Part shown: positions 4,426 through 63,200 of the stretch, in pieces | How positions within the stretch are numbered: position 1 is the stretch's first letter | Layout of the letters: each line of letters opens with the position of its first letter | DNA from: Bolinopsis microptera | Lineage: Eukaryota; Ctenophora; Tentaculata; Lobata; Bolinopsidae | Direction of reading: 5' to 3' | NCBI RefSeq assembly: GCF_026151205.1 | Contig: NC_087074.1 | Span: forward strand, 19,833,240-19,897,239 | Length of the DNA stretch: 64,000 bases | Position numbers and translations under genes: made by a program | Notes under the pieces: model-generated | Told to the model about the DNA's origin: nothing | What the model saw: the letters and a program-made list of their open reading frames with translations, nothing else | Databases searched by the model: none

Positions 4426-4880
4426 GTCTGGAATGATCAGGGTAGCATGAAACATGAACAAAAGTAATTTCCAGAAAAACTTTGAGGGGGTGTAGCTTCC
4501 TACACCCCTGTATAGATGGCTATAGATAGCTACAGTAATGTGATCCAATAACAAGGCGCTTCACCCCTTGTAACACTAACTATACTTAAGTCGAAGATAA
4601 TATGATTATAGATGAAAAGAGAAGAGCACAATACCCACCAATAGTCATGAGGGTATAGCTCCTAGCAATGGTGACCACTCCAAAACCCAAACAACACATT
4701 CAACAGGAGATATAGAGGCGATCAGGATCTCAGGTATATTTGCCATTTTCATGAAGGGAACCTAGGGACACTTAAGCCACGGTTAAAAAATAATCCTGGT
4801 CAAGTTGGAGAAGTTTATGATTTTATGACAACAGGGCTAGGATTGTGGTCAGAGTCATGGTTAGCCCCGGCCGGGTTATG
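4426..4880. other. No gene recognised
   Basis: AT-rich sequence with no long open frame, no splice-consistent exon and no recognisable repeat. Confidence 0.5.
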
Positions 4881-4884
4881 GTTG

Positions 4885-6690
4885 GGGTTAAGTGTTTATT
4901 TAAAACCTTTTTTTTAGTCTTTGGGCGATCGAAATAATAATATGAGTTGGCTGATCCGGTCATCGACGTTTCAATATAACCCAACTTTCAGCGGTTTAAG
5001 ACCTCCTCACCCTCCATCAGACACTAATCAGTTGCACAGCTATTATACAAGAATTACGTTATTCACAATAGCTATGAAGATATCCACCCACAGTGTTAGA
5101 TCATTTTGCACAAGGCTTTCTTCCCCCGGTCCCAGTGAACCTCTAGGCTCTGACTCAGATTTGATTTGATTTAGACTTATGACATTAGTATTAGCATCAA
5201 ACAATTCTCCGTTTAATGTCTAAATATAATTTCTTGAGACAAATTATATTGAAATAAACAGGATGAATATTATTAGTAGAATAATTACTACATCGCTAGT
5301 CCTGCTACATCGCTAGACGCAAAAGCTTCAAACTGTGAAGATCAAATAGAAATTTATCTGAAAATATTGCCAAAGTAGATGTTTTGTGCGTACCAGGATA
5401 TCAGCATCTTTGTACTACATACACTAGTCATTGTCACATTTTTTTTAAATGTTTAAAAATTTGATCGCTGGTATGAACTTAAAGTAGATTGGCGAAAAAC
5501 ATCTGTTAGTGCTTGTAAGCATAAAGTAAGCATTAAGTATTGGATATGGAACAAAGTCAAAGAGAGCTTGAAAGCTCTGGTGGCGTCATAGTCACGTGAC
5601 CTCAGGCTCATAATCACGTGACCTCAGACCCAATCAATTGGGTTCTGGCCTGGTCAGCCCCCTGTCACCCGATCTTGAGGTGACGTACGACACCTTGCTA
5701 ACCCAATACATGTCTGGAAGGCTGCTAATTTTCACATGCCAAACTCACGAGGTTCTTAAAGAGTTGTGCGAGATGACGATCCATGGTTGGGGGATAAGTG
5801 TTTATTTAAAACCTTTTTTTTAGTCTTTGGGCGATCGAAATAATAATATGAGTTTGCTGATCCAGTCATCGACGTTTCAATATAACCCAACTTTCAGCCG
5901 TTTAAGACCCCCTCACCCTCCATCAGACACTAATCAGTTGCACAGCTATTATACAAGAATTACGTTATTCACAATAGCTATGAAGATATCCACCCACAGT
6001 GTTAGATCATTTTGCACAAGGCTTTCTTCCCCCGGTCCCAGTGAACCTCTAGGCTCTGACTCAGATTTGATTTGATTTAGACTTATGACATTAGTATTAG
6101 CATCAAACAATTCTCCGTTTAATGTCTAAATATAATTTCTTGAGACAAATTATATTGAAATAAACAGGATGAATATTATTAGTAGAATAATTACTACATC
6201 GCTAGTCCTGATACATCGCTAGACGCAAAAGCTTCAAACTGTGAAGATCAAATAGAAATTTATCTGAAAATATTGCCAAAGTAGATGTTTTGTGCGTACC
6301 AGGATATCAGCATCTTTGTACTACATACACTAGTCATTGTCACATTTTTTTTAAATGTTTAAAAATTTGATCGCTGGTATGAACTTAAAGTAGATTGGCG
6401 AAAAACATCTGTTAGTGCTTGTAAGCATAAAGTAAGCATTAAGTATTGGATATGGAACAAAGTCAAAGAGAGCTTGAAAGCTCTGGTGGCGTCATAGTCA
6501 CGTGACCTCAGGCTCATAATCACGTGACCTCAGACCCAATCAATTGGGTTCTGGCCTGGTCAGCCCCCTGTCACCCGATTTTGAGGTGACGTACGACACC
6601 TTGCTAACCCAATACATGTCTGGAAGGCTGCTAATTTTCACATGCCAAACTCACAAGGTTCTTAAAGAGTTGTGCGAGATGACGATCCAA
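4885..6690. repeat. Tandem duplication, two 906 bp units
   Basis: The sequence from about 4890 is repeated almost base for base 906 bp later (compare GGGCGATCGAAATAATAAT at 4923 and 5829). Each unit contains an 82-codon open frame and a paired CACGTGACCTCAG motif. Differences are scattered single bases, so the duplication is fairly recent. The 82-codon frames look like by-products of the repeat: they have no recognisable domain or splice context. Confidence 0.9.
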
Positions 6691-10338: not shown

Positions 10339-13300
10339 ATGACGATAACGATCATCATTTTGACGATCCTACTGTGGTCATCAGTCAAAGGTAACATTTT
10401 ATATGGTAAAATCTTTACTAGTCATATTATAATTATGGACACGGGAGGCTAAACGTTACCACCCAAACGTTTCAGTTAACAATTGATTTATTATTTAAAT
10501 ACTTTTTCTGATATGACTTACTAATCGATTACTAAGCAATCGCTATAAAAGTACAACCACTGATTGAATAATAAGCTAATTGATTAATTTGCTTATTATC
10601 CTAGTAGCAACCAATTTTTCGATTATAATAAAAATGAAACCTCCTACCATCCTCACCTCACAACTGGGGATGTATCAAAATTAGTAATTACTAGTTGGTA
10701 TTCATGAAAACCAAATTTCCCCACTTTTTATGAAAACGACTTACTGTCATAACTTTATCGGCGTGTACATCAAATTTAATTAAATTATTTCAATTTTTTT
10801 TCGAATCAACGTTCAATATCGCATATTTTAGTTATTACTTATTCGAAATAATTGGATCAAGTCCAATTATAGTGCAAAGTGATTTAATTTAATAATTGGC
10901 CTTTCAAATTACAGTTTTCCTGAAAGGAAAGTGAGCTCTAGCTAAACTCTAATGATTGAGATATCCAAGACGAGTTCGTTAGTGTTCTCTTTGTTCATTT
11001 CATGTTTAATTCCTGTTTAATTCCTGTTTAATGTTTAATTCCTGTTTATCAAGTAAAAATACTTTGACAATTGGGATAGAATAGTAAAAAGTGAGTGCTG
11101 TCACGTCGGCCGGGTGGTTTAGTGGTTTTAATACATTTGCTTCTCACGCGGACGACTGGGGTTTGATTCCCAATGGGGACCAATTCGGTATGATGCGGTT
11201 CGGCAACCAAACCATGGTCTGAGCTTCGAAAAAACTTATAAAAAATTACATTTTAAAATTTTCAAAATTTTGTCAAGTCTCAAAAAATGTCTAAGTGAAA
11301 AATTTTCAAAAAATTCTCGAGCCAATACGTAAACATTTTTATAATTTTTGGTAATTAGATAATTAGCTAATTAGTAATTATACAATTATCTGATTGTCTG
11401 ACGTGAACATTTTTCGGACAAAAGTTCTTCTCGTCGATAAGATAAACACCCTCGATTAATTTGTAACCTTCTACGATGTTCATAGCTGAAGATATTTGAC
11501 AAACAAGAAAGGTGGTAAGAAGTGGCAAAAGTAGCAAAAGTGGCTTTAAGACATGTGGAAAATTTTGGAACAGTTAGTCAGCCTAATAACGTCATAAATC
11601 CTTTGGAAGCTTTTTGTGTTCGTAGATCGATTTTTCAGACGATCTGTAGCTGTACTATAGTACTATCTTTGCACTCTGCGCTGCCAATATCCATATCACG
11701 CAAAATATAGACCTTATTAGGTAATCGTGACGTCACGTTATCCATGACAGTTGGCACGAGTACTGAATAGACTGTGCAGTGTGCCTGCAGTCACGTCAGG
11801 CACGGATTTTTGGCTAGGCACGGCTTTTGAAAAGCCACGCGCGACGTGCCTGAGGAGTTGTCACGTATCCTTGGCACGCCCTATAAACACACTACGCACC
11901 TATGGTCATTACATCTGACCGCACCATGACAACAGTCATGGTGACAACAGTCATAGTATGGTCGGGCCCTTAAATTCTGAGAATAAACTATGGGCGACAT
12001 TCTTACAATTCCTTTATAGTCAAGTTAAACATACAATTAACAGGTGAGTTACCAGTCAAACGTGACGTGGAAATAGAGTGGGATCTTGAGTCGACACCTT
12101 TAGAAATTAGGACTGATAGTGTGCTGGGGAGTGACGATCAGGTGTATGTGCACTTCTACTCTGCTTCTGGAATTTATGCAGGAGCAGTCCGGCTCGAATT
12201 CACCTCTACTCCACAATACTGGCTCAGATACTGCTCCTCATCATTGGCTAACTTCCCTGTTAAACTCCTCTCTACTGCTGACAAGGTGTGGCGTTTCACT
12301 CTAACCAGGACTGCAGGTGTCAGACTAGTGATACACTGTAACGACGAGGAGGTGGTCAACACAGTGCTCTCTGAATCAACGTGCGGTGATAGCGCTTGGG
12401 CCTGGACCTGGACCAGAGACGTGGGAAAGATAAAGTTCTGGTCCGGCGACACAGCATCTGATTACTACGGAACACAATTACAATTACCAGGTGACTAATA
12501 AAAACAAGCATTGGTTTAACAAAGTAACAATTTTTTTAATCAATAAACTTTCAAATTGTTACACAAATACATCATTTTATTTCAAAGAAAATATCGCCGA
12601 ATGACCTTACATGCCTTGACAAGTGACCGAGTGTAAACAAAATAAGGGACACCGAAACACCAGTTGACCAGTAAACTGATCATAGCAATTACATCGGGCC
12701 CTAAATGCACCTATAAGTGAAGCGATGCTGCAACCAAGGCATGCTAGGTTTATTCCATTGAACTAATAAGGTTACAGCCTAAAATATAAATATAATAAAT
12801 AACAATGTACCATAAATCATAATTATAAACACACTTTATTTAACATATTTTATTAATTATACTTTTTATCAATTTATATTTAGACAATATAGTTACATTA
12901 AGGTAAATTGTTTAACTGTCAGAGGATGTTATATGGTCGTTTAGAACTGTCCAGAGGTACTTAATTAAATGGGTTTTAAACACGGATGGCCTTGAGATTT
13001 CCCTTAATTCATAAGGGAGTTTATTCCAAAGAATGTGTGCTCTGTAAAAGTAAGACTTAGATATGCCTGAACATCTGGTCTGGCTTGACGTAAGGTTTTG
13101 TGGAACTTGAGGAGAAATGTCACTAATCATACTGAGATCGTCTAGATGTGATCGCCTTAACCTACTTCCCATGAAACGTCGTAAGTAAGGTGGAAATGTC
13201 ACAACTGACATGTCATAAAAATATTATGAAAATATAATATATCCTTGTAATCAAACCTTACCGAGAGTGGAAGGATATTTAGTTCCTTACACGCTATGAA

Positions 13301-16300
13301 ATACCTTATTTTGTCCCTAAGGCTCAAGTAAATATCATTAAGGATCCACTTGATACCTCTTTTTTGTATCGATTCAAGTTTCTCCACCGAGGTTTCTGAA
13401 TGAGGCCGCCAGACAATTGTGCAGTGTTCGAAATGACTTCTAACCTGAGATAGATAGAAGGCCCGACTTTTTTTAGTGTTCTTGGTGAAGTAACATGTTC
13501 TTTTTAGAAGGCCTAACCTCTGACTAGCCTTAGAGTATATCATATCACAGTGATGTGACCAATCTAACTTACTATTGATATGTACTCCAAGATCTTTTTC
13601 AATGTCTGTGTATTCGATAGCCGTTTCATTCATTGAGTACACAAAAGTAACACTACGATTCATAGAATATGCTCGGGTAATAGAAAGAACGTGACTTTTT
13701 GAAGGGTGAAACACCATCTTATTATGATGAGCCCAATTTTGAAGACTGTTAATATCCCGCTGGAGCAGCCAATGGTCATCCTGGGACGTGATTCTACGCC
13801 ATATTTTTGTATCATCAGCATACATGGTTATATTTGTTTCCGGTGACAAATCCTCTGTAATGTCATTAAGAAAAAGTATAAATAAAGTAGGCCCTAAAAT
13901 TGAGCCCTGGGGGACACCTGATCTAACCTGACAGGGAGCAGACATTTTATTTCCAATGACAACCCTTTGGTATCTGTTTTCAAGGTAGCACTTGAAGAAT
14001 CTCAGTAGAGATGCATCAATGTTATATTGTTCTTTGAGCTTCAACAGAATTATGTCGTGGTTGACAGAATCAAAAGCTTTTTGGAAATCAAAGTATATTA
14101 TGTCAGTGCGAACATTGTCATTGAGAGATAGGGCTAAGCTGTCACAGAAATTTACTAGCTGAGTTGTACATGATTTCCTACTCATAAAACCATGTTGACG
14201 TTGATCAATAAGATGTTCACATCGATTGAGCAATTCATCCCGGATTACTTTTTCGTAAACTTTCATAATAATGCTTGACAGAGAAATTGGCCTATAGTTG
14301 TTAACTTCAATTTTAGAGCCTTTTTTATGAACTGGAACAACGTTTGCCATTTTCCAATCTGCTGGAATACATCCAGTTTTATAAGAGGCTTCAAAAAGGA
14401 TAGCAAGAGGCTTATAGACAGGCTCACTGAACAGTACTTTAAAATTCTTCCATGGATATTGTCGGCCCCTTGCGCTTTACTTGGATCAATATTTTCAAGT
14501 AAACCTTTGATTTTACAAGTGTCGAAATTGACCTGAAAATCACGGTCACTGGAAAAGTCGATATCTATATCATAATCACTACCCACTGTAAACTGTTCGT
14601 TAAAATATTTATTGAATAACTCACACTGTCCTTGCGGATCGGACCGTAGGCAACCATTGTAGCTGACTGTTTCAGGAATGCGATTAGACTTTGATTTAGA
14701 TTTCACAAAAGACCAGAACTTTTTGTTAATGAGATTTCTGTTATCATCATCTTCAAAGTTTGCGTCCAATTTTGCATCAACGAGATTTTTAAAATCCCTC
14801 CTAGCTTTGGAAAATTTTAAATATTTTTTTGGATTAGAAGACTGTTTCCATTCGTCATGTAGTCGCTCCTTTTTTCTACATAAATCAAAGACATCTGAGT
14901 CAAACCATGGGGGTTGAAATTCATCGGAGACAGATATCTTAGGAATATGTGAATTACAATGAGAAGTGAAAATAGTATTGAAAACTGACCAGGCCTCTTC
15001 GACTGGTTTACCACTAAGTAGATGTTCCCAGTTTTCAGAATTCAGTGCATTATTTAAATTGGTCCAATTGGCCCTTTTGAAGCTATAGATTTTTCGTTTG
15101 GTAGACTTTTTCTTTCTAGCGTTAAGTCGTATGTCAAATCTTATCGCATAGTGATCCGACTCACAAATACCATGTTTACTGTCAACAATTAATTCTGATA
15201 TAATTTCTGGCTTATCCGTCAAAACTACATCTAGAACATTTCCCCTGTAATGTGTAGGGTCTGTTACCAGCCGCTGTAAAGATAAATCATTAAACGTATC
15301 AATGAATGCTTGTTCAATAGGAACAGAGGAGGAGCCCTCATCCCATCTGACCTGGGGCATATTCAAATCACCAACCAAGGTAATGCTCTGTACTCTTCTA
15401 CGCCTACGGATGTTATTTAGGTATTGCTTGACTCTATCATGGTTATCATTGCCAAGTGTGCCAACTCTGTAGAACGAGCTAAATATGGATTTTCTTCCTA
15501 ACTTGTCAGAAAGCTCAATACTCAAAATCTCGGCTCTACATTTGACAGGAATGATTTTAGATTCTATGTCAAGACAATGTTTTATGGCAATAAGGACACC
15601 ACCCCCATTTACTCTGAATTTCCGACTATTCTGGGGGTCCGGGGGATGAGTAAAGCTAGAACGGTCAAGTCTAAATACTTTGTAATCAGCTGTCGAGATG
15701 ATTTCACTATCATGGATATTGTCCTTTAACCATGTTTCATTATAAACTACAATATCTGGTTTATTGATATAAATAAAATGGTTTAGTTCGTGAATTTTTG
15801 TAGAGTGGAGAGTGGGATTTGCATCTCCAAGTTCACCAAAAGGGATCAAGCCCTGAACGTTACAATAAAAAACTGAGCAGTTTCCCGGGGGTCCTGGATT
15901 TTTCATGCTAGGGTTACAAATAAAGATAAGGAGAAAGTTTATGAGTAGTATCCAAAGGTAAAGTGATGCAGTTATATTTTGTAGATATGGGATTAAGCAG
16001 TTAAGCCTCGTTTGGGAATAACTTTAATTTATAAATAAACCACCTTGCTGATTTTCTCGTAAGCTCGTGATTACGTGTTTTCTGTCTAAATTTCAAGTGT
16101 GTTATTTAACATTATGGTACGGCACAAGCACGTGGTAGTCGAGTGACGTAGTCACGAGACATGCCCCCGTGACACAGCACTCTGCTGTAATGGCCATTCA
16201 CAAGCGTCTCAGAGTAAAACCGGTTTTTCTGAATATTTATGTGAGATTAGATTCACATCCTTATAGTTCTAGAGAACAGCACGGGTCAAGTATGAAGTAT

Positions 16301-26800: not shown

Positions 26801-29800
26801 CTATGTTCTTTGTGATTTACGTAATCCAGGTAGGTTGTGGAGTAAAAATGGTGGCCATTCGTCGTTGCAGCCAGCACTTTGCAAGTCTAGTAGTACTTTT
26901 TTTGACGAATTCTTATATATGTTGATAGAAAATATACTGGATGGGCATGTAATGCGAGTGTTATGCTCTGAAATAGCGAGCATTGGGCCTTTATAAAAGA
27001 TGCTAGATCTCAGGTCAGTCTGTGAGTAAATTGATAACCAGTCTAAGTTTTGTTCGTGTGTCGTTCCTTGTTTGGGTGTGTTAGGAGGGAAAAGTTCTGA
27101 AATCGATTTAGGTAACAAACTAGACATATTTCGAACTTTGTGCAGTAAAATAAGTGCGTTTTTAACGATAACCCCTTGAACGGTTAAGACCTCGTGTTCT
27201 TTAAATGCTAGTTTTGTGTGCTCTGGCAGTTTTCCGTCCTTGTAGTAGTAGTTCACATTTCCGGCCATAACTGCCCTCATACCTTGTTTTTGTTTAGCAA
27301 AAAGAGATTCTATAAGAGATTTTGAAGCAAATCCCCAGACAAGTGAGCAGAAGTTTAAATGGGACTGAACAAAACTTTGGAAAATCTGTAAACGGGCCTT
27401 CATTGGCAATTTATGTTTTATCCTGTACATCACCCCAATAAATCTTGACATCTTGCTCCTCAGTGCTTTTATGTGGCTACTCCAGTTAAGCTTTTCATCT
27501 ACAATTACACCAAGAAACCGGGCTTCAGTTTTACGTTCTAATACTGTATTTTCTATTTGTACTTTAATCAATGATGGTTCTATGCGCTTTTTCGAGAAAA
27601 TCATATAACACGTCTTTTTTAGATTTAGTGCTAATCCGTTGCTATTAACCCACCGTGATAATGTTTCCGTTAGTTGGTTGACCCTTAGCATTAGTTCTTG
27701 GACATTGGAACCGTTAATAATGATATTTGCATCGTCTGCATAAAGTATGAATTTTACCATCATGTTAGAAATACCGGGAAGATCGTTGATGTATATGACG
27801 AAAAGTAAGGGACCTAGTATGCTCCCTTGTGGAACACCATGCACAATAGGCTTGTGGGACGAATGTGAATTGTTTATTGCTACATATTGGCTTCTATCAC
27901 TTAGGTATGACTCAAACCACTTTAGAGCTATTCCCCGGATGCCGTAATGCTGTAATTTATTTAGCAGTGTAGCATGATCCAGGACGTCAAACGCTTTACT
28001 GTAATCTAATAATAGCAGTAGTGAAATTTGGTTTTTGCTAAGAGAGTGTAAAATTGTACTTTGTGCATTAAGAAGAGCATGTTCACATGACCTTCCTGGA
28101 CGGAACCCATACTGATTTTCGAATAAAGAACTATTTTTGTTGAGAAATTCTAAGACACGTCGGTGCATCAGTTTTTCGTAGATTTTTGAGAAGGAACCTA
28201 AGAGAGAGATGGGTCTATAATTTTCAACGTCAAGTTTAGAGCCTCCTTTATGGATGGGAGTTACTTTGGCAATTTTAAGGGCCTGTGGAAATATGCCTGT
28301 ACTTAAGGATTCGTTGATAACTTTTGCTAATATAGCAAGGAAACTATCACTGGAACTGGCTACTTTTAGTGGTTCAATTTTTGTGTCAAGAGTCGCTTTG
28401 TTCTTCAAACCAATAATAATTCTTTGAATTTCGATCGTTTCAGCAGGCTGGAGATAGATTGATTGAGAACAGGATGTGGGCAGATATTCCTGGAACCCCC
28501 CAGGGTCAAAGGTCTGACGGGCACTTATCTGAGTTTTGATGTTCGTAGCAATGTTCGAGAAATAGTCATTAAACCTTTCAGCCACGGTATCTTCAGAACT
28601 CAAAATCGACCCGTCCGAACCTTTAAGTCTTAACTGCTCTGTTTTCCTGCTTCTACCAAGTAAACCGTTGATTATTTGCCATTGTTTTTTGGAGCAGTCC
28701 TGGTATTTTTCGAATTGTTTTTTATAGTATCGTTGTTTGGCAATGTTGACATGTTTTTTACAGAAAAGTTTTAGCTTTTTATAGGCCTCTATATTATTCA
28801 TTGTAGGTTCAAGTACTTTACTATGATAACTTTCTTGTTTCCGCGCACATGCTTCTTCAAGCCAGGGTAATATCCAGGGTTTAGTATTAGAACGCTCATG
28901 TTCACGGCGAATATGATTGATTTTTAGTGGATAGGCAGTGTTATAGTGCTTGGTGTATATATCTGCAAGTTTTCCGTATTGCAGACTAGCGTCGTCTGTA
29001 CTTAATATCTCGTCCCACGTTTCCCCATCGATGAGTTCCCTAAAAGCAGCATTGTTGGCTTCATTTAAGACACGTGTTTCATAACTAAGTTTAGGTTGTG
29101 TGTTAGTGGGTAGCCTGAGATGTTGTTGCGAAGAGTTACTTAGTTTAAAAGTGGTAACGATAGCAAGATGATCCGATAAATCCACCGTTACAACGTTACT
29201 GCTTACTGTGTTATTTATATTATTTGTGTAGACATGATCAATTAAGGTAGCACTATGATCGGTGACTCGTGTCGGCCTTGAAACCGTCTGAACAAATCCA
29301 TACTTGGCAAGGAGGTCTATGAGGTTCTGTCCAGAAATATCAGTTTTGAATTTTATAAGATCAATGTTCGCGTCCCCAAAAAACATGATATGCTTGCGAG
29401 AATGTCTTTCAAGACCTCGTAGCACCTTTTCCAACGAATTTAAGAAGTTCTGAGTACCTTTAGATGGGGACCTGTAAAAGTTTATCAATACTTTTGTTTG
29501 GTTTGTGCCTTTGCAATTATGCACCTTAACTAATTGAAATTCAGCGCATGTGTCTTCAGGATCTGTGGTTGCCTCAAGATTTTCTATATTTTCGGGATCA
29601 CAAACCCTCTTATTAATGTAAATTACAAGGCCACCACCTTTTCCTGATTTGCGAAATGGTTCCTGAACAATAGGCTCGTGAAACCCTTCGATTTTAATGT
29701 CAGAGATTCCGTTTGGTAATTTATCTAACTTCAAATTGGTTTCGTTAAGACACAAAACGTCATACTTAGTATAACTGTCGATTTCTTCACGGAAGTATGT

Positions 29801-30474
29801 GATGTTCTTTACTAATGATCGCACATTAAGAGAAAACACTTTCAGTTCATCACGGGAGGAACTTTTAATGTTCGATGGCTGCTGATACTTACAATTGGTT
29901 AGTATATCGCTGATTTCGTTCCAGTATTGGTAACTTTCATCGTTATCCTGATCTAAAGCGTTACCGATCAAATCTAAACCATGTGAGCGGTCGTATGGAT
30001 TGAAAAGAGCAGTGATTCGGCTGCTACAGTTCATAAAAAGATCATAAGATGTCACATAATAACCTGGGATTAACGACTCACAGCACTTTATGCAGCCTAA
30101 ATTATCTCTAAAACACTTTTTATGAATGTACTCATCGCACCATGGACAAAACCTAATGTTTAATCTAGAATAACAAAACCCGTTACAGGCCATGCACTTT
30201 GTTTTAAAATTAGTTTTGTTAACACTACTTTTTTATTCGTCGGGACATCAGAGGCATTGATTGGGAGAATTGAGCTTATGCATTCATAGCAGAACCATGG
30301 GTTCCCAGAATTTATAATGTGCCGGGCATCGTTTTTTGATAGTTTCTGGCATTTTAAATGTTTACGTTCAGCACATAGGTCACAAATTAGGTCAGGAGAA
30401 CTTTTAGGGATACGAATATAGCATTTGTCGCAATTGGGCTGTGAGCCGTGTTGCCTATGATTACTTCGCTCCAC
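26801..30474 (-). mobile_element. Near-intact LINE with PHD finger, endonuclease and reverse transcriptase
   Basis: The frame 30193-26801 is 1130 codons without interruption. It begins with a Cys-rich zinc segment (FCPWCDEYIHKKC, CIKCC), followed by an APE-type endonuclease (LCLNETNLKLD, GGGLVIYI, MFFGDANIDLIKF, LSDHLAIVTTF). The reverse transcriptase follows (HKGGSKLDVENYRPISLLGS, LLLLDYSKAFDVLDH, GVPQGSILGPLLFVIYINDL, YADD at about residue 818) and then a C-terminal tail (FLGVIVDEKLNWSSHIKAL). Upstream, 30474-30160 encodes a C4HC3 PHD finger (CDKCYIRIP, ICDLC, WFCYEC) in the overlapping frame. The two frames meet at a run of six A (30229-30234), where a -1 shift would fuse them. CR1/L2-like by architecture. 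It could be an active element. Confidence 0.92.
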
Positions 30475-33418: not shown

Positions 33419-36400
33419 ATGGATTTACCTGATATAGGAGTTGATGCTTTACCAGATGATGGTGAAAAACCAGGCTATCTACACCAACTCAGGTCTAACC
33501 AGTTCTTTGCTGCTGGTTTTGGCTTGGGTGCTCTAGGAGCAGCTACTACAGCTTTAAAGAAACTCAGTGTTGTTGGAATGGGCATCGCCAGACGAAAGTA
33601 GGTAACTCAAATTCGATATTTTATAATTACTTGTTTATATCAGCAATAACAATAATGCAGAGCATTATTGGCTAATATAATCAATGGAATTCATTTCATC
33701 AAAATTTCAGGCTTTTTGTGTCAGTTGAACTAAACTCAAGAGACCCATCTTATGAGTGGTTCCTCAACTGGATGGCACGCAATGTAAATCACACTCAACA
33801 TCTGAGTGTTTCGACTGACTTGATAAAACACGATAATGGAACAGTTACCACTAGTTTTGGGTTCTTGCCAAGTACAGGTATTTGCAGCTTATTGTTGTTT
33901 TTTTTATTCCACGTAACTGGAAAGCCATAACTAAAATAACGTTTTCAATATCAACTTTCAAATTATCGTTTACGTGAACCTTCTATTCAGGGAGACATTA
34001 TTTTCGATATAAACGAACTTTCATGTCATGTGAACGAGTAAGAGAGACTAACACACTTGCTAGATCGGGCCAGTTGTGGGAGAGTGTGGTTATAACTATG
34101 TTGGGGTACAACCGACACAAATTACTGGGTAATCATACTTCTCAAGAACCAATCTGAACTATTGTTGTTTTCTTAGGGGGGGGGGGGGGGGGGGGCAATG
34201 GGTATTTTTTGTGAAACTTGATTTCGAGATAGCAGTTGACCAACAAACTAGGACCAGTGACCGAACTTTTGAGGGGGTCTCAGACCCGAACCGCCAAACG
34301 GTGCCCGCGGGGCAGCCACGCCCATATTTGGTCTAATATAGGTCCAATTCAGCCAAATACCCTGAACATGCCCAAAACCCAGGTATAAGGTGCTCTTCTT
34401 GTAGCTAGTGGTCTCCTAAACTCGTAAATGAAATTTCATCAAGATTGGACAAAAAATGACTGAGTTATGAGCCAAAAACCATATGCCCATATTTGGGCAT
34501 ACGCATCAAATTTGGTAGATTTCGTCCCATAAATTGGTCAAATATCAATATTTTTGAATGAGACTTACTTTATATGAAAGGTAATATAAGCCTAAACTAC
34601 ATATTCTCTCTAAGTTATTGTCTTATATCTGTTTAAATGTGGATGCTAAGGCGAAAATACCCCAAAAAATGAACAAAATTGCTGGTATCTTCGTTCGCGA
34701 TATTCGCGGAATTAATTTCATTAATTTGAAAATAACTCAATCAGTTTTCAAAATTTTTGCATGAAATTTTCGGAATCGACTCTAAATCGTATTTCCACCT
34801 TATTGTAGGAAGCCGATTTTTGATTTAGGCCAAAATATGGGCATATGGTTTTTGGCTCATAACTCAGTCATTTTTTGTCCAATCTTGATGAAATTTCATT
34901 TACGAGTTCAGGAGACCACTAGCTACAAGTAGAGCACATTCAACCTGGATTTTGGGCATGTTCAGGGTATTTGGCTAATTTGGGCCAAATATGGGCGTGG
35001 CTCCCCTGCGGGCACCGTCTGGCGGTTCGGGTCCCGGACCCCCTCAAAAGTTCGGTCACTGGTCCTAGTTTGTTGGTCAACTGCTATCTCGAAATCAAGT
35101 TTCACAGAAAAATACCCATTGGCCCCCCCCCCCACCCCCGCCCCCGCCCCCCTTAATTCTGATATTCTGCTATACACTAATTCAATGTCAGTTACTAATC
35201 TTAACAATCAACATGTATATTCAATGTGTAATGTGTATTTAGGTTATCTCTGAATTAGTAATAGGACCACACTTCTATAATACATGATAGATGATTCATC
35301 CCAATTTGAACCGTCCAGAGTTGATGGAAGAAGCAAAATTTGAAGCAGTTCAAAAGATAGAAGGAAGAACAATCGTATATTCTGCGATGGGTAAGAATTA
35401 AGATTTTCATTCCATTTATAATATTTCTGTTATAAATATATAATACAGACCATAAATATTACTTTCCACACGTTTTGGTGCTTTATTTTACACTGAATTG
35501 ATTAATGTAAGTTATTGGTAATTCATTGTGTCAGGCCACGAATGGAGACAGTTTGGTAATCCCCTTCGACAGCGTCCAGTTAGCAGCATATACCTACCAT
35601 CTCAAGTCAGCAGCAGAGTCCTTAATGACATTCAGGAATTTCTGTCATCACAGGAGTGGTGGGTAAGCATCAGCTTTCATACTTATAACTGAATTCTTGT
35701 TAGTTGTTGATTGAATCATTGATTTTGAAATTTAATAACCCCCTTTGTTAAATAAATTGTCATTATTTTACCAAATATTACTACCAGGTATGTAGACCAC
35801 GGAGTTCCCTACCGACGAGGATACCTGTTTTATGGTGAACCAGGATCTGGTAAAACCAGTTTCATCCACTCTCTGGCAGGTACACTGAGTCTATTGTAAC
35901 TAATCTCCTTATATGGGCATCACGTGTAAAAGTGTATTGTAACTAATCTCCTTATATGGGCATCACGAGGATACCTGTTTTATGGTGAACCAGGATCTGG
36001 TAAAACCAGTTTCATCCACTCTTTGGCAGGTACACCGGGGGGGGGGTGCAGGTACTTTTTTGATGGAACATAACCCTAAAAGTACCCTAGGGGTGGGTGG
36101 GTGTTTTATGAAATTTTCGAAAAGTATCATGGTACTTTTTTTGTCCCAAAAAAAAGAAGGGGTACACCAAAACATGATTATAAAAGTACATGGTACTTTT
36201 TCATTACCAAAATGTTAGAATTGGGGTTTTCACCACTCTCTGGCAGGTACACTGAGATTCTTTTTGAGCCCCATCTTCACCTGCCTTCACTCTCCCAAAA
36301 AAGCTGCTCGAATTATGAGAACTAATTAATACTTTCAACACTACTATGTAAGATATAATTTGAGACTCTCATGATGTATCAAGCCTCATATTGTGGGTTT

Positions 36401-38312
36401 CCCTTCGTATCCAAATAAAACATATAAGAACTAATTATATAATGTTGTAAACGCAGGAGCGATCGGTTACAATATCTGTGTAGTGAATCTGTCGGAGAAG
36501 ACGTGGACAGATGATAGATTACAGTACTTGTTTGCGAACTGTCCTGATCGCAGGTCTGCCATTCTAACGTCAAATATAAATGCTATGCTTTTAACATTAT
36601 AACGTCAAATATAAATGCTATGCTTTTAATCTTAATTCTTCTCCAGAGGACTCAGAAAATAATGAGCATGGTCCATTTTTGAATTTTAATCTAGTACTAT
36701 CTCCCCAGTATATTGCTTCTAGAAGATGTGGACGCAGCGTTTATAGACAGACAAGCGGAGATACCACGTGGTTACACACGTGCTGATGCTCATCTGTTGT
36801 TATCATACAGTGGCCTGCTTAACGCCCTGGACGGGGTGATGAGCAGTGATGCACAGCTAGTCTTTATGACCACTAATCACAAACAGCTCCTCGACCCAGC
36901 TCTCATTCGACCGGGCAGGGTGGACGTGCAGGTACATTTATCAAAACACATTTACCGGGCAGGGTGGACGTGCAGGTACATTTCTCAAAACACATTTACC
37001 GTGCGATATGAGTTTTAAAATTCTCGAATTTAAGGTATTGTAATTGGGGTTATATCGTTGAAAGTTCTTATTTTATCAATCCTCCGCATAACTAATGAAA
37101 TTTGCCCGGCAGGAATATTTCGGAAATGCTGTTTCAGAACAGGTTATATCAATGTTGAAACACTTCTTCCCCGACGTCACCGAGGAAGCATGCTCGATAT
37201 TCTCCAGTCTCGTTCCTGACAATTCTATGAGTATGGCAGAACTACAGGGCATGTTTTTATTGCACAAGGATGACCTAGATTCTCTCATTAATGCTGTTAA
37301 GGAGTTAAACTTAAATAACATCGACCCAGCTCTCATTCAACCGGGCCAGGTACGTTCCTGAAGATCTAAATAAATAATAAATAAATAATGGTCTATCTTT
37401 TTTTGGGTAGTTTTGAGAAAATGGCAGTCAAATTTTGTTACTATAAGTAGCTTTTGAGTCTATGATCTTGTTTATAGCATATTGAAACATGCTTAATATG
37501 AACATTTGTGTTTGTGCGCATCATGTCCACTTACTTTACCAAAATGTAAGTCATTGCAGTGCTCACAGTGATGTACTTTCCTACATAGACCATTATTGCA
37601 CAAGATGATAACTGACTTAGACCAAAAATCAACTGTAATATAGACCATTGTTGCACCAGCTTTTTATTTACTTACATCACTAAATGATGACATAGACTAT
37701 TTTTGCACCTTGTATCGATTGATTTCTGAACAACAAAATTATGAAATAGACCATTCTTGAACCCAATAATGTCAAATTGGCCAAATAATTGGGATCTACC
37801 GTGATTTTAAAAGGCCGATTTTGTCTAAGAGGCGTTGGACTATTCTTCCAAGCTGGAATTTTAAGATTTTTTCCATGCACTATCATGGATCACTGTGATA
37901 TATACCTCATGAGATAGCCCATTTTTCACTGAGTTCAAAAATGTAAAAATTTCAAAAACGGTCTATCTCCTGTTAGACCAGTATTGCAGCTGGTCTCACA
38001 AATGCACAAAGTAATTTTTGTTTTGTTATAGTAACCTATAATTTCATCAATCTTCAACATGAATTAACAAAATTCCTTCATCAGGAGTATTTCGGGAATG
38101 CCGTTTCAGAACATGTTATATCAATGTTGAAACACTTCTTCCCTGACGTCACCGAGGAAGCATGCTCGATATTCTCCAGTCTGGTTCCTGACAATTCTAT
38201 TAGTATGGCGGAACTACAGGGCATGTTTTTATTGCACAAGGATGACCTAGATTCTCTTGTTAATGCTGTTAATGACTTGAACCTAAATCAAATTAATGAT
38301 TCTGATAGTTGA
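33419..38312 (+). CDS. BCS1L: Mitochondrial chaperone BCS1 (AAA ATPase for complex III assembly)
   Basis: BCS1 moves the folded Rieske Fe-S protein across the inner mitochondrial membrane into complex III. Exons: 33419-33597, 33711-33877, 33991-34128, 35319-35390, 35535-35658, 35788-35879, 36457-36553, 36709-36931, optional 37113-37349, and 38085-38312. Without the optional exon this gives 439 residues (human about 419). Visible features: an N-terminal segment with a Gly/Ala-rich hydrophobic helix ([16 protein letters not shown]), the BCS1 N domain ([19 protein letters not shown]), Walker A GEPGSGKT at residues 243-250, Walker B ILLLED at 291-296, [10 protein letters not shown], and [20 protein letters not shown]. 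Reading phase agrees at every junction. The donor of the fifth coding exon is GTGGGT; the stronger GTAAGC four bases on would break the frame. The optional exon duplicates the last exon. Confidence 0.93.
34176..35152. mobile_element. Foldback element with G-run and C-run ends, in BCS1 intron 3
   Basis: A run of 20 G at 34176-34195 and a C-rich run at about 35122-35152 bound two inverted arms of about 300 bp, which share CTATCTCGAAATCAAGTTTC and ACTCAGTCATTTTTTGTCCA in opposite orientation. There is no open frame. Related cores (CATATGCCCATATTTGGGCA) occur at 42134-42832 and about 50365-50548. Confidence 0.85.
35935..36032 (+). repeat. Partial tandem duplication of BCS1 Walker A exon
   Basis: The stretch from GGATACCTGTTTTATGGTGA through the end of the sixth coding exon and its GT donor is repeated here with one base change. 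It has no acceptor site: the 32 bp in front (ATTGTAACTAATCTCCTTAT and onwards) repeats intron sequence from about 35934. A skipped, non-coding copy is expected. Another fragment (CACTCTCTGGCAGGTACACT) appears at about 36230. Confidence 0.88.
36912..36998 (+). repeat. Tandem repeat across the BCS1 exon 8 donor
   Basis: CCGGGCAGGGTGGACGTGCA, the donor GTACATTT and the following bases (to CACATTTACC) occur twice in a row. The duplication supplies a second possible donor about 46 bp downstream. Use of the second donor would add codons out of frame. Confidence 0.85.
37113..37349 (+). other. Duplicated BCS1 last exon turned into a cassette exon
   Basis: 79 codons, phase 0 at both ends. The first 68 residues match the terminal exon (38085-38312) with five differences ([20 protein letters not shown] against [20 protein letters not shown]). 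The last residues, DPALIQPGQ, match the end of exon 8 (DPALIRPGR), and a GTACGT donor follows. If included, the protein would have two C-terminal AAA lid segments in tandem (518 residues). If the donor is not used, translation stops after three more codons. Confidence 0.75.
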
Positions 38313-44700: not shown

Positions 44701-47700
44701 ATCTTCCAGCAAAAGTAAAGACTGCCATTTTCTTTCATGAATTTTAACGACTGAAGCACGGTTATCTTCTCGTTTATGTTCATTTTGTACCTGTTTAAAC
44801 GCTTGTACTCTTGCAATGTGATATTTTCGAATTCTTCCATTTTCTCGAATAGACCCTCGAATTGAGCACGAGGACACAAACACATTGCAGTTGAGATTTC
44901 AGGCATATCCTAGAGAATTGAGAAAAATGTTGTAGCTTGACTGGTTTATGATCATCTTAACCCACGGAATATAATTAGGGATGAGATGCTGGTGAAGCAG
45001 TATAGCTAGTAGTTCCTTCTTGTCTGCTACTTCTGAGATAACACATTCCATAGCCCTTTCGAGGTCCTGGTATCTTGTATCAGTGCTATCAGAGTGTATT
45101 AGACGGACTAGATGTTCTCCAATAAACAGTCTACTTGGTTTATAAACCTCTTCTTTGAGGGATTCTATAGAGGTTGTCTTTGTAGGTGTCTTACCACCAA
45201 ATGCTTTGACTGCAACTATAGAACTATCAACAAGCCTACATTGTCCAAATTCCATTTATTTTCGGACATCCAATCCAAGATTTGTTTTCGAGCTCCGGGA
45301 ATATCAAAAGCAACCATGAACTTTAGAATATCTTGAAAGTTTTCTTCAGTAAGCTTAACCGATCCACCGTGAAGGATAGACAAACATTCTCGCACATGTT
45401 TATTATCTGCTAGCAATAATTGATTGTCCTCCTTTATGAATTGTCTGAGCACAGGACTGTGTTGAACTAACAACGCTGCATTGCATTTAATGGTTCCTGA
45501 TTCTGTGATAACTTCAACTGGATCATCAAATTCATTGTTTTCAAGGAAGAAAGTGAAGTCAGTGTTGAAATCAAGCTTAACAGTCATTTGCATCTCTGCA
45601 AATGCTTTATTTTCAGCGATTTACTTGAATGGGTTTTATTTATATGGGGATATAATGATTGAGACTCCTTAGGACTTCTAAGGAAAACCCAACGGTAAAT
45701 TTATTTTTGAGTTTGCACTTCATCCCCACAGCCCCTTATACACCACGACTAATATTTTAGTCCTAATTAAATTCGGCTCATTCACTAATATTACGATGCT
45801 TGAAAAGAAAAATAAACCCAAGGAAAAAATACGCAAACTGCTCCAATTCTAGTGGTGAAACACTCCACATCATCCGATACTAGCTCACCGATGCCCATCC
45901 TATAGATCCGTTACAAACTTACAAAATGCACATATACAAGCACTGTTCACTCATCTAGATTTTGCCTTAAGCTCAATATATTTGACTGTCAATAAAAACT
46001 TGTGAGTAGTATTAAGTCTATTAACCGACGCGAAAATTCGTGATTTGATTTGTCCGTCCGCGTCACCGTGTTGTGACTTGACTGCCATTTTATATATCCA
46101 AGTCATTCCAGCATTATTTTAACGTGATTTGTTTATATAACTTGTTCATTTATAACCAATCTAAAACAGACAATGACTCGATGGTATAAATTACATGCTG
46201 CTAGAATACTAGTGCTGCTAGATCCCCGATTATTACATTGCTTCTAGAAAGAAAGACTCTCAGGTCAATGATCGGGGCTTCACGACAACTATATGTTTTA
46301 AACCTAAGGAGACTAAGCTATGATGAGAAAGCGTTCTATAACAGTCCAGTTCACTGCACTGTGGATGATAACGTCTTGTGATACGAATTGCACTTCATAC
46401 TCCAGTAGGTATCAAGATCTTTCTTCATCACGTATGTAACCCTCATAATGTTTATAAACAACTAATTTCAGTGTCCGCTAACCAGTACGATTCCCCTATA
46501 ATGTTTATAAACAACTAATTTCAGTGTCCGCTAACCAGTACGATTCCCCTATAATGTTTATAAACAACTAATTTCAGTGTCCGCTAACCAGTACGATTCC
46601 CCTATATGTTTATAAACAACTAATTCAGTGTTCGCTAACCAGTACGTAAACCCAATATTGTCTTATAAACAACTAATTTCAGTGTCCGCTAACCAGGACG
46701 ATTTCCCCTATAAATGTTATAAACACTATTTCAGTGGTCCGCTAAACAGTACGATTCCCCTATAATGGTTTTATTAACAACTAATTTCAGTGTCCGCTAA
46801 CAGTACGAGTCCCTATAATGTTATAAACAAGCTATTTCAGTGTCCGCTTAACCAGTACGAGTCCCTATTAAGGTTTATAAACAAAACTAATTTCAGTGTC
46901 CGCTAACCAGTACGATTCAACCATATCAGCATGATGCCTGTTATAAACAAACTAATTTCAGTGTCCACTAACCAGTACGTAACCCCTACAATGTTTATTA
47001 ACAACTAATTTCAGTGTCCGCTAACCAGTACGATTCCCCTATAATGTTTATAAACAAAACTAATTTCAGTGTTCCCGCTCACCAGTACGGGGGATTCCCC
47101 TATAATGTTTATAAACAACTAATTTCAGTGTCCGCTAACCAGTACGTAACCCCTATAATGTTTTATAAACACAATATTTCAGTGTCCGCTCTAACCAGTA
47201 CCGTAACCCCTATAATGTTTATAAACAACTTAATTTCAGAGTCGCTAACCAGTACGTTCCCTATAATGTTTATAAACAAATGTTTCAGTGTTCCGCTACT
47301 AAACCAGTACGTAACCCCTTTATGTTTTAGAAACAATAATTTCAGTGTCCGCTAAACCAGTACGTAACCCCCTATAATGATTTATATAAACAACTAATTT
47401 CAGTGTTCCCGCTAACAGTACGAGTCCCCTATAATGTTTATAAACAACTAATTTCAGTGTCCGCTAACCAGTACGTAACCCCTATAATGTTTATAAACAA
47501 CTAATTTCAGTGTCCGCTAACCAGTACGTTACCCCTATAATGTTTATAAACAACTAATTTCAGTGTCCGCTAACCAGTACGATTCCCCTAGAATTGTTTT
47601 ATAAACAACCTAATTTCCGTGTCCGCAACCAGTACGATTCCCTGTCTCCATTCCTAGTACCAGTTACCAGTACCGTGTGTCTTCATCTTAGAACTGTGAA

Positions 47701-49734: not shown

Positions 49735-52700
49735 TTTTCGTCTCCTGCCTTCGTACTTGTTTGACAGCCCTTCAGCCTTTGTTAAGACTACCATACAAAG
49801 TTCTATTGCTAACCCACTATCAGTCCACAGCAGAAAGCTTAAAACAAACGAAAAGTTTGCATTTTCAAAAGGCTGGTCCCATTTTCAATATGAAATTATT
49901 CCGAACACAATTTGACGGACTGGATGACATTTTTGCCACAAATCAATTAGTCAGTTATCAATGTGATATGAAACCAAATTAGGAACAGGAGTCAAAATCC
50001 AGCATGAAATGGACAAAAATCATATGTCCAATCTCTGTCCAATTTTCAGTTTTTGAAGATGAAATTTCCGGACCGAAATTTTAAACTTTTGACTGGATTT
50101 TTTGACCTTGCAAAATAAGTAAGTCAACTATAACTGGCATTGACAGATGAGGGTGCTGGAAGTTGATTTGGTTCGGACAGAAGCCCACAGCAGAAAGCTT
50201 AATCAAAACGAAAAGTAGCATTTTCAAAAGTCTGTCCCATTTCGAAATATGAAATTTCTGAACACAATTTGACAGATTGGATAAAATTTTGCCCACAACA
50301 TTTAGTCAGTTATTGCTGATGGTATGGAAACCAAAGTGAGGTACTGGGAGTTAAAATCCCGCACCCCCCCCCCCCCCCCCCCAACCTTGCCCCAAATCCA
50401 ATATGAATTTTTATCCAGATTAAACTAAAAATGACTGAGTTATGAGCCAAAACCTATATGCCCATATTCAGGCATGTGATAAATTTTGGCCCATAAATTG
50501 GTCAAATATCAATATTTTGAATGATACTAACGTTATATGAAAGGTAAGCCTAAACTACATATTCTCTGTGAGTTATAGCTTTATATCATATGAACATGAA
50601 ATTAGGTCGGTCCGACCTAATTATATTTTCGTGACAGTAAGAATCATTTGTTCGGGTTCGGGACTCTACGGCGTAAGACTCATTTGTTCACCGCGATCCA
50701 ACCACATTGTTACCTACGCACACCCAGAACTCGCCCAAAGTATTTATTAAGCAGTAAAACAATAAAACAAATAAAACTCAAACTGTCCTCCTATACTAAG
50801 GATACTAAGGATCCTTCACATTATATATCGCATAAGCCATATTTTGACCTTGAGTACATCAGCGCAAGCGTATCCAAAATGAAATCCACTGGCTTACCTA
50901 CTAGGCTTACCGAATCACAAAATATTAATTCGACAAATATTATTCGGTCAAACGGGGCTCTTACTAATTCGCTCGCCCAAAAATTTCACGTGACTTTGGT
51001 TTTTATGGTTTTGCAGCTGTACAAAACGGCTTTACATAAACCCTAATCCCAACACTAACCCTAACCATAACCCCGAAGCTATCCATAACCCTTATTCTTA
51101 ACTGTAACACAACTCTAAGTCTAGGCCTAACCCTAACCCGAGCCATAAACGATCGAACTCATGTTTTACTAGCATGTCACGTGACCAAAACGGTTTTTTG
51201 CCCATAACTCTCCAGGGAAGTATTTTTACCTTACGTCATCAGGGGTGATTCGAAATCAGCGTCCAAAAATACATACACAATTTCATACCCAAGGGGCCTT
51301 TTCACAAGAATTTTCTTAAAATTTGGGAGAGCGATTTTGGGACACAAATTTTACAGTTTTGACTGAATTTCTCGCCTGTTACCAATTAGTCACTCAAGTA
51401 TTATAGGTGGCATATAACACGATTGAGGTGCTGGAAGTATGATTGAGGTCGGAGGAAGCCCACAGCAGAAAGCTTAACGAAAAGAAAAGTTGTATTTTCA
51501 AAAGTATTGGAAAATTCACATTTTCCAAATTCTGTCCCATTTTCAAATATGAAAATTTCCGAACACAAATTAGACAGATTGGATGGTTTTTTTGCCCAGA
51601 TACCAATTAGTCTGTAAATTGATGATGGTATGAAACGAAATTGAGGTACTGAAAGTGAAAATCCCGAAGAAAATTGAAAAATCATATTTTCCCATTTTCG
51701 GTTTTTGAAGATGAAATTTCCAGGACCTAAATTTTACAGTTTTGACTGATTTTTTCACCCGCAACCAATTAGTAAGTCAACTATAGATGGCATATGACAC
51801 GATTGAGGTGCTGGAAGTTTGATTCCGGTCGGAAGAAGCCCACAGCAGAAAGCTTAACAAAACGAAAAGTTGCATTTTCAAAAGTCTGTCCCAATTTCAT
51901 ATACGAAATTTTCTGAACACAAATTTGACAGATTGGATGAAATTTTTGCCAACAAACCAATTAGTCAGTTTTTTAAATAATTGATGATGGTATGAAACCA
52001 AATTGAGGTACTGGGAGTCAAAATCCCGCATAAAATTGCAAAATCATATTGGCCCAATTTCTGTCCCATTTTCAGTTTTTGAAGATGAAATTTCCAGGAC
52101 CGAAATTTTACAGTTTTTACTGTTTTTTTGACCTGCAACCAATTAGTAAGTCAACTATAAATGGCATATGACACGATTGAGGTGCTGGAAGTTTGATTTC
52201 GGTCGGAAGAAGCCCACAGCAGAAAGCTTAACAAAACGAAAAGTTGCATTTTCAAAAAGCTGTCCCATTTTCAAATATGAAAGTTTCTGAACCCAAATTT
52301 GACAGATTGGATAAAATTTTTGCCCACAAACCAATTAGTCAGTTAATTGATGATGGTATGAAACCAAATTGAGGTACTGGGAGTCAAAATCCCGCACAAA
52401 ATTGCAAAATCATATATTGGCCCAATTTCTGTCCCATTTTCAGTTTTTGAAGATGAAATTTCCAGGACCGAAATTTTACAGTTTTTACTGTTTTTTTGAC
52501 CTGCAACCAATTAGTAAGTCAACTATAATTGGCATATGAAACGATTGAGGTGCTGGAAGTTTGATTTCGGTCGGAAGAAGCCCACAGCAGAAAGCTTAAC
52601 AAAACGAAAAGTTGCATTTTCAAAAGGCTGTCCCATTTTCAAATATGAAATTTTCTGAACCCAAATTTGACAAACTGGATGACATTTTTGCCCACAAACC

Positions 52701-53375
52701 AATAAGTCAGTTAATTGATGATGGTATGAAACCAAATTGAGGTACTGGGAGTCAAAATCCCGCATAAAATTGCAAAATCATGTTGTCCCAATCTCTGTCC
52801 CATTTTCAGTTTTTGAAGATGAAATTTCCAGGACCGAAATTTTACAGTATTTACTGTTTTTTTTTACCTGCAACCAATTAGTAAGTCAACTATAAATGGC
52901 ATATGACACGATTGAGGTGCTGGAAGTTTGATTCCGGTCGGAAGAAGCCCACAGCAGAAAGCTTAACAAAACGAAAAGTTGCATTTTCAAAAGCTGTCCC
53001 ATTTTCAAATATGAAATTTTCTGAACCCAAATTTGACAAACTGGATGACATTTTTGCCCACAAACCAATAAGTCAGTTAATTGATGATGGTATGAAATTG
53101 AAACCAAATTGAGGTACTGGGAGTCAAAATCCCGCATAAAATTGCAAAATCATATTGTCCCAATCTCTGTCCCATTTTCAGTTTTTGAAGATGAAATTTC
53201 CAGGACCGAAGATTTACAGTTTTTACTGATTTTTTCACCTGCAACCAATAACTAATAAGTAAGTCAAATATAAATAACATATGATTATGACACGATTGGG
53301 GTGCCCAAATTTGACAGACTGGATGACATTTTTGCCCACAAACCAGTCAGTTAATTGATGATGGTATGAAACCAA
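49735..53375. repeat. Satellite array of about 363 bp units, left block
   Basis: Units contain GGAAGAAGCCCACAGCAGAA, AGTTGCATTTTCAAAAG, CAATTAGTCAGTTAATTGAT and AATTTCCAGGACCGAAATTT. Adjacent units are 363-366 bp apart. The array is interrupted at about 50364-51350 by a C-run foldback-like piece and other repeats. The recurring minus-strand 70-83 codon frames are by-products of the repeat. Confidence 0.93.
50364..51350. repeat. Insertion inside the satellite (foldback-like core plus dispersed repeats)
   Basis: Starts with a run of C, then a core related to the BCS1 intron foldback (ACTGAGTTATGAGCCAAAAC). A 21 bp palindrome centred near 50613 (arms ATTAGGTCGG and CCGACCTAAT) follows, then a degenerate (CCCTAA)-like stretch at 51041-51150, then the segment CACGTGACCAAAACGG also related to about 21820. 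Confidence 0.6.
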
Positions 53376-61799: not shown

Positions 61800-63200
61800 T
61801 AACGTTAATTGATGATGGTATGAAACCAAATTGAGGTACTGGGAGTCAAAATCCCGGATAAAATTGCAAAATCATATTGTCCCAATCTCTGTCCCATTTT
61901 CAGTTTTTGAAGATGAAATTCCAGGACCGAAATTTTACAGTTTTGACTGAATTTTTGACCTGCAACCAATTAGTAAGTCAACTATAAATGGCATATGACA
62001 CGATTGAGGTGCTGGAAGTTTGATTTCGGTCGGAAGAAGCCCACAGCAGAAAGCTTAACAAAACGAAAAGTTGCATTTTCAAAAAGCTGTCCCATTTTCA
62101 AATATGAAATGTTCTGAACCCAAATTTGACAGATTGGATAACATTTTTGCCCACAAACCAATATGTCAGTTAATTGATGATGGTATGAAACCAAATTGAG
62201 GTACTGGGAGTCAAAATCCCGGATAAAATTGCAAAATCATATTGTCCCAATCTCTGTCCCATTTTCAGTTTTTGAAGATGAAATTTCCAGGACCGAAATT
62301 TTACAGTTTTGACTGAATTTTTGACCTGCAACCAATTAGTAAGTCAACTATAAATGGCATATGACACGATTGAGGTGCTGGAAATTTGATTTCGGTCGGA
62401 AGAAGCCCACAGCAGAAAGCTTAACAAAACAAAAAGTTGCATTTTCAAAAAGCTGTCCCATTTTCAAATATGAAATTTTCTGAACCCAAATTTGACAGAT
62501 TGGATAACATTTTTGCCCACAAACCAATTAGTCAGTTAATTGATGATGGTATGAAACCAAATTGAGGTACTGGGAGTCAAAATCCCGCATAAAATTGCAA
62601 AATCATATTGGCCCAATTTCTGTCCCATTTTCAGTTTTTGAAGATGAAATTTCCAGGAGAGAAATTTTACAGTTTTGATTGAATTTTTGACCTGCAACCA
62701 ATTAGTAAGTCAACTATAAATGGCATATGACACGATTGAGGTGCTGGAAGTTTGATTCCGGTCGGAAGAAGCCCACAGCAGAAATCTTAACAAAACGAAA
62801 AGTTGCATTTTCAAAAGGCTGTCCCATTTTCAAATATGAAATTTTCTGAACCCAAATTTGACAAACTGGATGACATTTTTGCCCACAAACTAATAAGTCA
62901 GTTAATTGATGATGGTATGAAACCAAATTGAGGTACTGGGAGTCAAAATCCCGCATAAAATTGCAAAATCATATTGTCCCAATCTCTGTCCCATTTTCAG
63001 TTTTTGAAGATGAAATTTCCAGGACCGAAGATTTACAGTTTTTACTGATTTTTTCACCTGCAACCAATAACTAATAAGTAAGTCAAATATAAATAACATA
63101 TGATTATGACACGATTGGGGTGCCCAAATTTGACAGACTGGATGACATTTTTGCCCACAAACCAATAAGTCAGTTAATTGATGATGGTATGAAACCAAAT
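61800..63200. repeat. Satellite array of about 363 bp units, right block
   Basis: About four units of the same satellite as 49735-53375, in the same orientation. The last unit has the same truncation (GATTATGACACGATTGGGGT) before the duplicated flank, so the two blocks share a breakpoint. Confidence 0.93.

Follow-up and report, generated by a model that had tools for sequence, protein, structure and literature searches.

A second, intact copy of the lid-encoding last exon in a BCS1 gene of Bolinopsis microptera, a candidate in-frame cassette

BCS1 gene model

The window, i.e. the whole stretch of 64,000 nucleotides of Bolinopsis microptera DNA that was analysed, carries on its forward strand a predicted BCS1 gene whose last coding exon is found twice. 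Both copies are located on the same chromosome-scale contig (C3, 21.28 Mb). The features of the gene are listed below in positions of the window.

33419-36931, + strand: BCS1 exons 1-8, 364 codons, open spliced translation
33419-33597, 33711-33877, 33991-34128 and 35319-35390, + strand: exons 1-4
35535-35658, 35788-35879, 36457-36553 and 36709-36931, + strand: exons 5-8
36709-36931, + strand: exon 8, phase 0, donor CAG/GTACAT
36932-37112, + strand: intron 8, 181 nt
37113-37349, + strand: extra lid-encoding exon, 237 nt, 79 codons, phase 0 at both ends, donor CAG/GTACGT
37321-37349, + strand: tail of the extra exon, copied from exon 8 (36891-36931) and 12 bp shorter, with both arginines of RPGR now glutamine
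37350-37385, + strand: read-through end VRS with its stop codon (TGA, 37359-37361) and AATAAA at 37369, 37376 and 37380
37384-38003, + strand: dispersed repeat within the intron after the extra exon, with related copies on two other contigs (C10 and C8)
38041-38084, + strand: 3' end of the intron after the extra exon, with its homologue in intron 8 at 37070-37112
38085-38312, + strand: normal terminal coding exon (exon 9), 75 codons and TGA (38310-38312)

The exon ends were placed by hand, with human BCS1L as a guide. Joining exons 1-8 to the terminal exon gives a protein of 439 AA, of which residues 22-429 matched the PDB chains 6uko (E 6e-112) and 6sh3 (E 2e-110). Both chains are named mitochondrial chaperone BCS1, and we take them to be the mouse and the yeast protein, respectively. 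The Pfam domains BCS1_N (PF08740, 123.6 bits), AAA (PF00004, 66.1 bits) and BCS1 lid (PF25426, 44.8 bits) were found in this order, all above the cut-off. Judged by this combination of BCS1_N, AAA and a BCS1-type lid, the gene is identified as a BCS1 AAA chaperone. It resembles the mitochondrial chaperones BCS1/BCS1L in its domain order and differs from them by a possible second lid. In the similarity search, each of five PDB sequences named BCS1 aligned with the one-lid query as one stretch.

When the 264.65-Mb assembly was searched with the 75-AA protein of the terminal exon and three first-look candidates were scored, the extra exon and the terminal exon were the only places matched (E <= 0.001), and the description as a single locus refers to this one search. 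Relatives were also sought with 253 AA, and none was confirmed among the genome contigs (16 pattern matches) or the viral contigs (one pattern match).

The last coding exon and its copy

The extra exon is preceded by CAG at 37110-37112 and followed by GT at 37350. Over the first 68 codons it differs from the terminal exon at 14 of 204 bases (6.9%). Five of the differing codons change the residue (Q/H, M/I, I/V, K/N and E/D), and nine are synonymous. The extra exon is open across its 79 codons, with neither a stop codon nor a frameshift, and does not have the marks of a pseudogenic exon. Each copy matches the Pfam BCS1 lid domain. In a BLAST self-comparison of 12 kb, the exon copy was found with an E-value of 1.7e-88 and the tail with 1.9e-5, which excludes chance, and the alignment of the exon copies together with some intron sequence reached 88.7% over 248 columns.

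The last part of the extra exon comes from elsewhere in the gene. Since 25 of the 26 bases at 37321-37346 are identical to exon 8 at 36891-36916, the terminal residues DPALIQPGQ derive from the end of exon 8, which reads DPALIRPGR. This tail runs directly into the donor, and may have arisen from the exon 8 sequence through one loss of 12 bp, or through a gain of one base and a loss of two. Because both arginines of RPGR have been replaced by glutamine, the piece has not been kept as a working motif. A preliminary description of this locus had given the coordinates, residue counts and phases of exon 8 and of both copies, the number of residue changes, the copied tail with its GT donor, and phase 0 on both sides. 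On recounting, all of these were correct, and the spliced frames are open.

Further short duplications of exon ends are found within the gene. The end of exon 8 and its donor are duplicated in tandem over 44 bp (36910-36953 and 36954-36997), reaching into intron 8. At 36976 it creates another donor with the same score; splicing from there would lengthen the transcript by 44 nt and put it out of frame. The 3' end of the Walker A exon is repeated with its donor in the following intron (35815-35885 and 35965-36035, 71 bp, 99%), and a third fragment of 29 bp lies at 36228-36256. By eye, the Walker A copies look inert and lack an acceptor, and none of the other small duplications of exon end and donor in this gene resembles a usable exon.

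Origin of the extra exon

A single tandem duplication could account for this arrangement. It would have started inside exon 8 (at about 36891), run through intron 8 and ended just before the stop codon of exon 9. In its product, the body of exon 9, the tail of exon 8 and the donor would form one fused exon, behind which lie another copy of intron 8 and then the original exon 9. As the start of the duplication lay in the exon upstream, the copied terminal exon would have become internal. In this mechanism, the intron behind the extra exon would descend from intron 8 and would since have diverged from it and grown by the dispersed repeat of about 620 bp.

Such a duplication would leave behind a fused exon and two introns that are homologous. 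The two introns were compared after removal of the dispersed repeat (37384-38003) and of one 44-bp repeat copy of intron 8. Their global alignment scored 16, compared with a mean of -0.6 (sd 4.3, maximum 13) for 500 shuffles. The local alignment was less striking, with a score of 21 against a shuffled mean of 14.2 (sd 2.5, maximum 26, 1000 shuffles). The best local alignment pairs 63 sites with one gap, and a count derived from its score gives about 43 matches and 20 mismatches, i.e. about 32% divergence. Adjacent homologous exons in the same orientation, compatible phases (0/0) and related introns support a tandem duplication as the probable origin of the extra exon. The breakpoint proposed in the preliminary description, between the end of exon 9 and the end of exon 8, is borne out by the tail copy and the intron homology.

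The dispersed repeat is MITE-like, since in another copy (locus L004) the two termini form inverted repeats that agree at 28 of 30 bases. At the BCS1 locus its left end appears to be cut short.

The presence of two copies could also be an assembly artefact in which two alleles or haplotypes were placed in tandem. We regard this as very improbable. At the junction, exon 9 runs into the tail of exon 8, only one of the two introns holds the extra repeat, and instead of near-identity extending through the introns, the divergence rises from 6.9% in the exon to about 32% over the 63 intron sites.

Constraint on the extra exon

Local duplication is ordinary in this genome. In 20 control loci, each 10 kb long and two of them flanking the window, 37 clusters of direct repeats were counted; 16 of the 20 loci had at least one cluster, and 9.5% of the bases were covered. 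It is the upkeep of the extra exon which stands out against this background. The alternative is a young decaying or cryptic exon that is rarely or never used and is intact by chance. Pseudogenic exon copies have been described in mammals (PMC2718932), and both the frequency of local duplications and the inert-looking exon-end copies in the same gene speak for such an exon.

The substitutions point in the other direction. The synonymous and non-synonymous differences between the copies, whose comparison the preliminary description had proposed, gave a dN of 0.02-0.04 against a dS of 0.17-0.25 (four methods), which fits constraint. In simulations with a neutral extra exon, a constrained terminal exon and nine synonymous codons, about 17-20 codons were changed on average, and five or fewer in only 0.6-2.1% of the matched runs. 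This range covers six settings, combining two transition biases with three levels of constraint on the terminal exon, with the terminal exon sequence as the start and without indels. With a constraint of 0.1 or 0.2 on both copies, a count like that observed was ordinary (35-87% of runs). By symmetry, the observed total of five changed codons, set against these runs with a neutral extra exon, also argues against neutral drift of the terminal exon. This constraint test comprises 14 substitutions in one species.

The fit to the Pfam lid profile agrees with this pattern. Over the 68 shared residues, the extra exon scored 51.0 bits and the terminal exon 49.6. Eight stop-free neutral simulations, the first eight of ten made, scored 46.4, 42.8, 37.2, 36.2, 33.7, 28.9 and 22.9 bits and, in one case, had no match, so that the extra exon exceeds all eight. 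Two of the five residue changes could be polarised against the BCS1 sequences in PDB. At lid residue 10, the extra exon has glutamine, as do 6uko and 6sh3, and the terminal exon has histidine. At lid residue 39, the terminal exon has isoleucine as in 6uko (valine in 6sh3), and it is the extra exon that departs, with methionine.

Taken together, these tests support the view that the extra exon is under constraint and is not decaying. Decay is considered unlikely given the lack of stop codons and frameshifts, too few residue changes relative to synonymous ones, an undiminished lid score and an exon that is more alike than the flanking intron. The preliminary description had also pointed to selection, but on the grounds of the conserved frame. 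That argument is weak, as an in-frame join is expected by chance in one of three cases, and it is the substitution pattern and the lid score that support the claim. Past gene conversion between the copies is possible in view of the long identical stretches of the exon. Such conversion would reset synonymous and residue-changing differences alike.

Predicted transcripts

Three spliced products are open, each with one stop codon. Joining exon 8 directly to the terminal exon gives the normal BCS1 of 439 AA, so the earlier statement that skipping yields the normal protein is right at the sequence level. Exon 8, the extra exon and the terminal exon in tandem give 518 AA with two Pfam lid matches. 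Reading through the donor of the extra exon gives 446 AA ending in QPGQVRS, with the in-frame TGA beginning 10 nt into the intron.

On a scale of generic frequencies, the donor of the extra exon ranks first of the nine in the gene model, with 6.0 bits compared with at most 4.4 for the others, which favours splicing on to the terminal exon. The acceptor is modest without being the weakest, with 8 of 16 pyrimidines compared with 7 to 11 for the other eight acceptors. When 36920-37120 was folded as RNA, its structure did not stand out: the z-score was 1.69, and 194 of 200 shuffled sequences folded equally well or better.

Because of this donor, we tentatively place first the possibility, raised in the preliminary description, that the extra exon is a cassette, included in frame in some transcripts (518 AA, two lids) and skipped in others (439 AA). 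It would then function as an exon that encodes a further BCS1 lid domain in full. In the two-lid form its lid would adjoin the ATPase core, and the lid of the terminal exon would be a C-terminal extra. This use as a cassette is in line with the exon copy, its tail and phase, the open frames, the two lid matches in the joined protein and the glutamine kept at lid residue 10. The modest acceptor, the loss of RPGR in the tail and the methionine at lid residue 39 count against it, as does a poly(A)-like site right behind the extra exon, for which a cassette has no need. The exon anatomy and the open frames are plain observations; the transcription of the extra exon, its inclusion and any effect on the protein are inferred.

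This poly(A)-like site could instead be explained by an alternative last exon, an option absent from the preliminary description. The donor would then remain unused, the protein would end after VRS (446 AA), and cleavage would occur at the site behind. Transcripts that skip the extra exon would end with the terminal exon, and the two isoforms would swap one lid for the other. By its sequence features, the extra exon is a fair candidate, with an AG acceptor, the stop codon after VRS, and the AATAAA cluster with a U/GU-rich stretch behind it. AATAAA or ATTAAA followed by a U/GU-rich stretch occurred in 93 of 10,000 random control stretches, the hexamer alone in 800, and three AATAAA within 45 nt in one, in a control that was framed after the site had been seen. 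The cluster is also a short AT-rich simple repeat at the edge of the inserted element, and one of ten stretches tested behind the terminal exon has a similar hexamer with a U/GU-rich site (38594, ATTAAA). A swap would explain the upkeep of both lids, each being the sole lid of its own isoform. It has parallels in humans, where 77 of 236 substitution events of tandem-duplicated exons swap C-terminal regions, about 15 being expected (PMC9741552). Yet the best donor of the gene on the scale used would not be needed. This option is ranked second and is, in our view, somewhat unlikely.

The extra exon might also be a composite exon with three regulated outcomes, being skipped, polyadenylated behind, or spliced to the terminal exon. 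We consider this less likely again. The polyadenylated outcome would be a one-lid BCS1 carrying the lid of the extra exon. BCS1 forms a heptamer, and the spliced outcome would have two complete lids per subunit and fourteen per heptamer, as a form of this AAA protein that is made and selected. A cassette with skipping, alternative last exons that are swapped, or a composite exon that combines the two would each explain why both lids are retained.

The retention of two lids is poorly explained by constitutive inclusion, with the two-lid protein as the only or main BCS1, because one lid should then drift freely. The simulations disfavour neutral drift of the extra exon and, by symmetry, of the terminal exon. 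Both splice sites of the extra exon are intact, its donor is strong and its acceptor is the nearest to exon 8, which speaks for constitutive inclusion. We nevertheless hold it to be improbable.

Comparison with known systems

The secreted/membrane switch of the IgM heavy chain uses a composite terminal exon, in which either a donor within the exon is used or the transcript reads on to a stop codon and poly(A) site. The extra exon of BCS1 resembles this arrangement in sequence only, with a donor or else a stop codon and a poly(A)-like site, and differs in that it would add a duplicate folded domain instead of a membrane tail.

Tandemly duplicated exons occur in about 10% of animal genes, as cited in PMC9013439, where mutually exclusive terminal exons are also described. 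The BCS1 locus is like tandem exon duplication with alternative splicing in having neighbouring homologous exons in the same orientation and compatible phase. Unlike the usual case, a terminal exon has become internal, and joint inclusion of both copies keeps the frame. The copies are not a strict internal mutually exclusive pair, since exon 9 is terminal and carries the stop codon, and with joint inclusion open the reading frame does not enforce exclusion. As in the human C-terminal substitutions of PMC9741552, one gene has two coding ends for the C-terminus that are homologous to each other. In contrast to that set, the predicted extra exon has both a good in-frame donor and a stop codon behind it, making swap and tandem inclusion both possible. 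The copy of the BCS1 last exon is thus a variant of known tandem exon duplication in which a simple step leads from a terminal exon to an internal one. A literature search on BCS1 and exon duplication, with most subscription papers outside its scope, found no report of a two-lid BCS1.

If the extra exon is used, one duplication would have been enough to supply a terminal exon with the donor of the exon upstream and so make it an in-frame domain cassette. A conserved mitochondrial chaperone would then exist naturally with two lids, or with two versions of its lid. A true two-lid subunit would be a natural test of the role of the lid in Bcs1. If it is unused, the locus would be a tidy case of an exon copy that is kept intact.

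Neighbouring features

From 38800, less than 500 bp past the BCS1 stop codon, what seems to be a further gene begins on the same strand; it may be SMG5/7-like. Intron 3 of BCS1 contains an inverted repeat (34177-34501 and 34826-35139) with two pairs of arms of 161 and 165 nt, which are 93% and 88% complementary and flanked by G- and C-runs. On the minus strand, the translations of two long ORFs (13199-16023 and 26801-30232) read as LINE-type endonuclease/reverse transcriptase-like. A 907-bp tandem duplication with 99% identity lies at 4878-6689. Tandem arrays are located at 46440-47642 (53-bp units), 51519-53249 (368-bp units) and 61804-63068 (366-bp units), and the consensus units of the 368-bp and 366-bp arrays have sequence in common.
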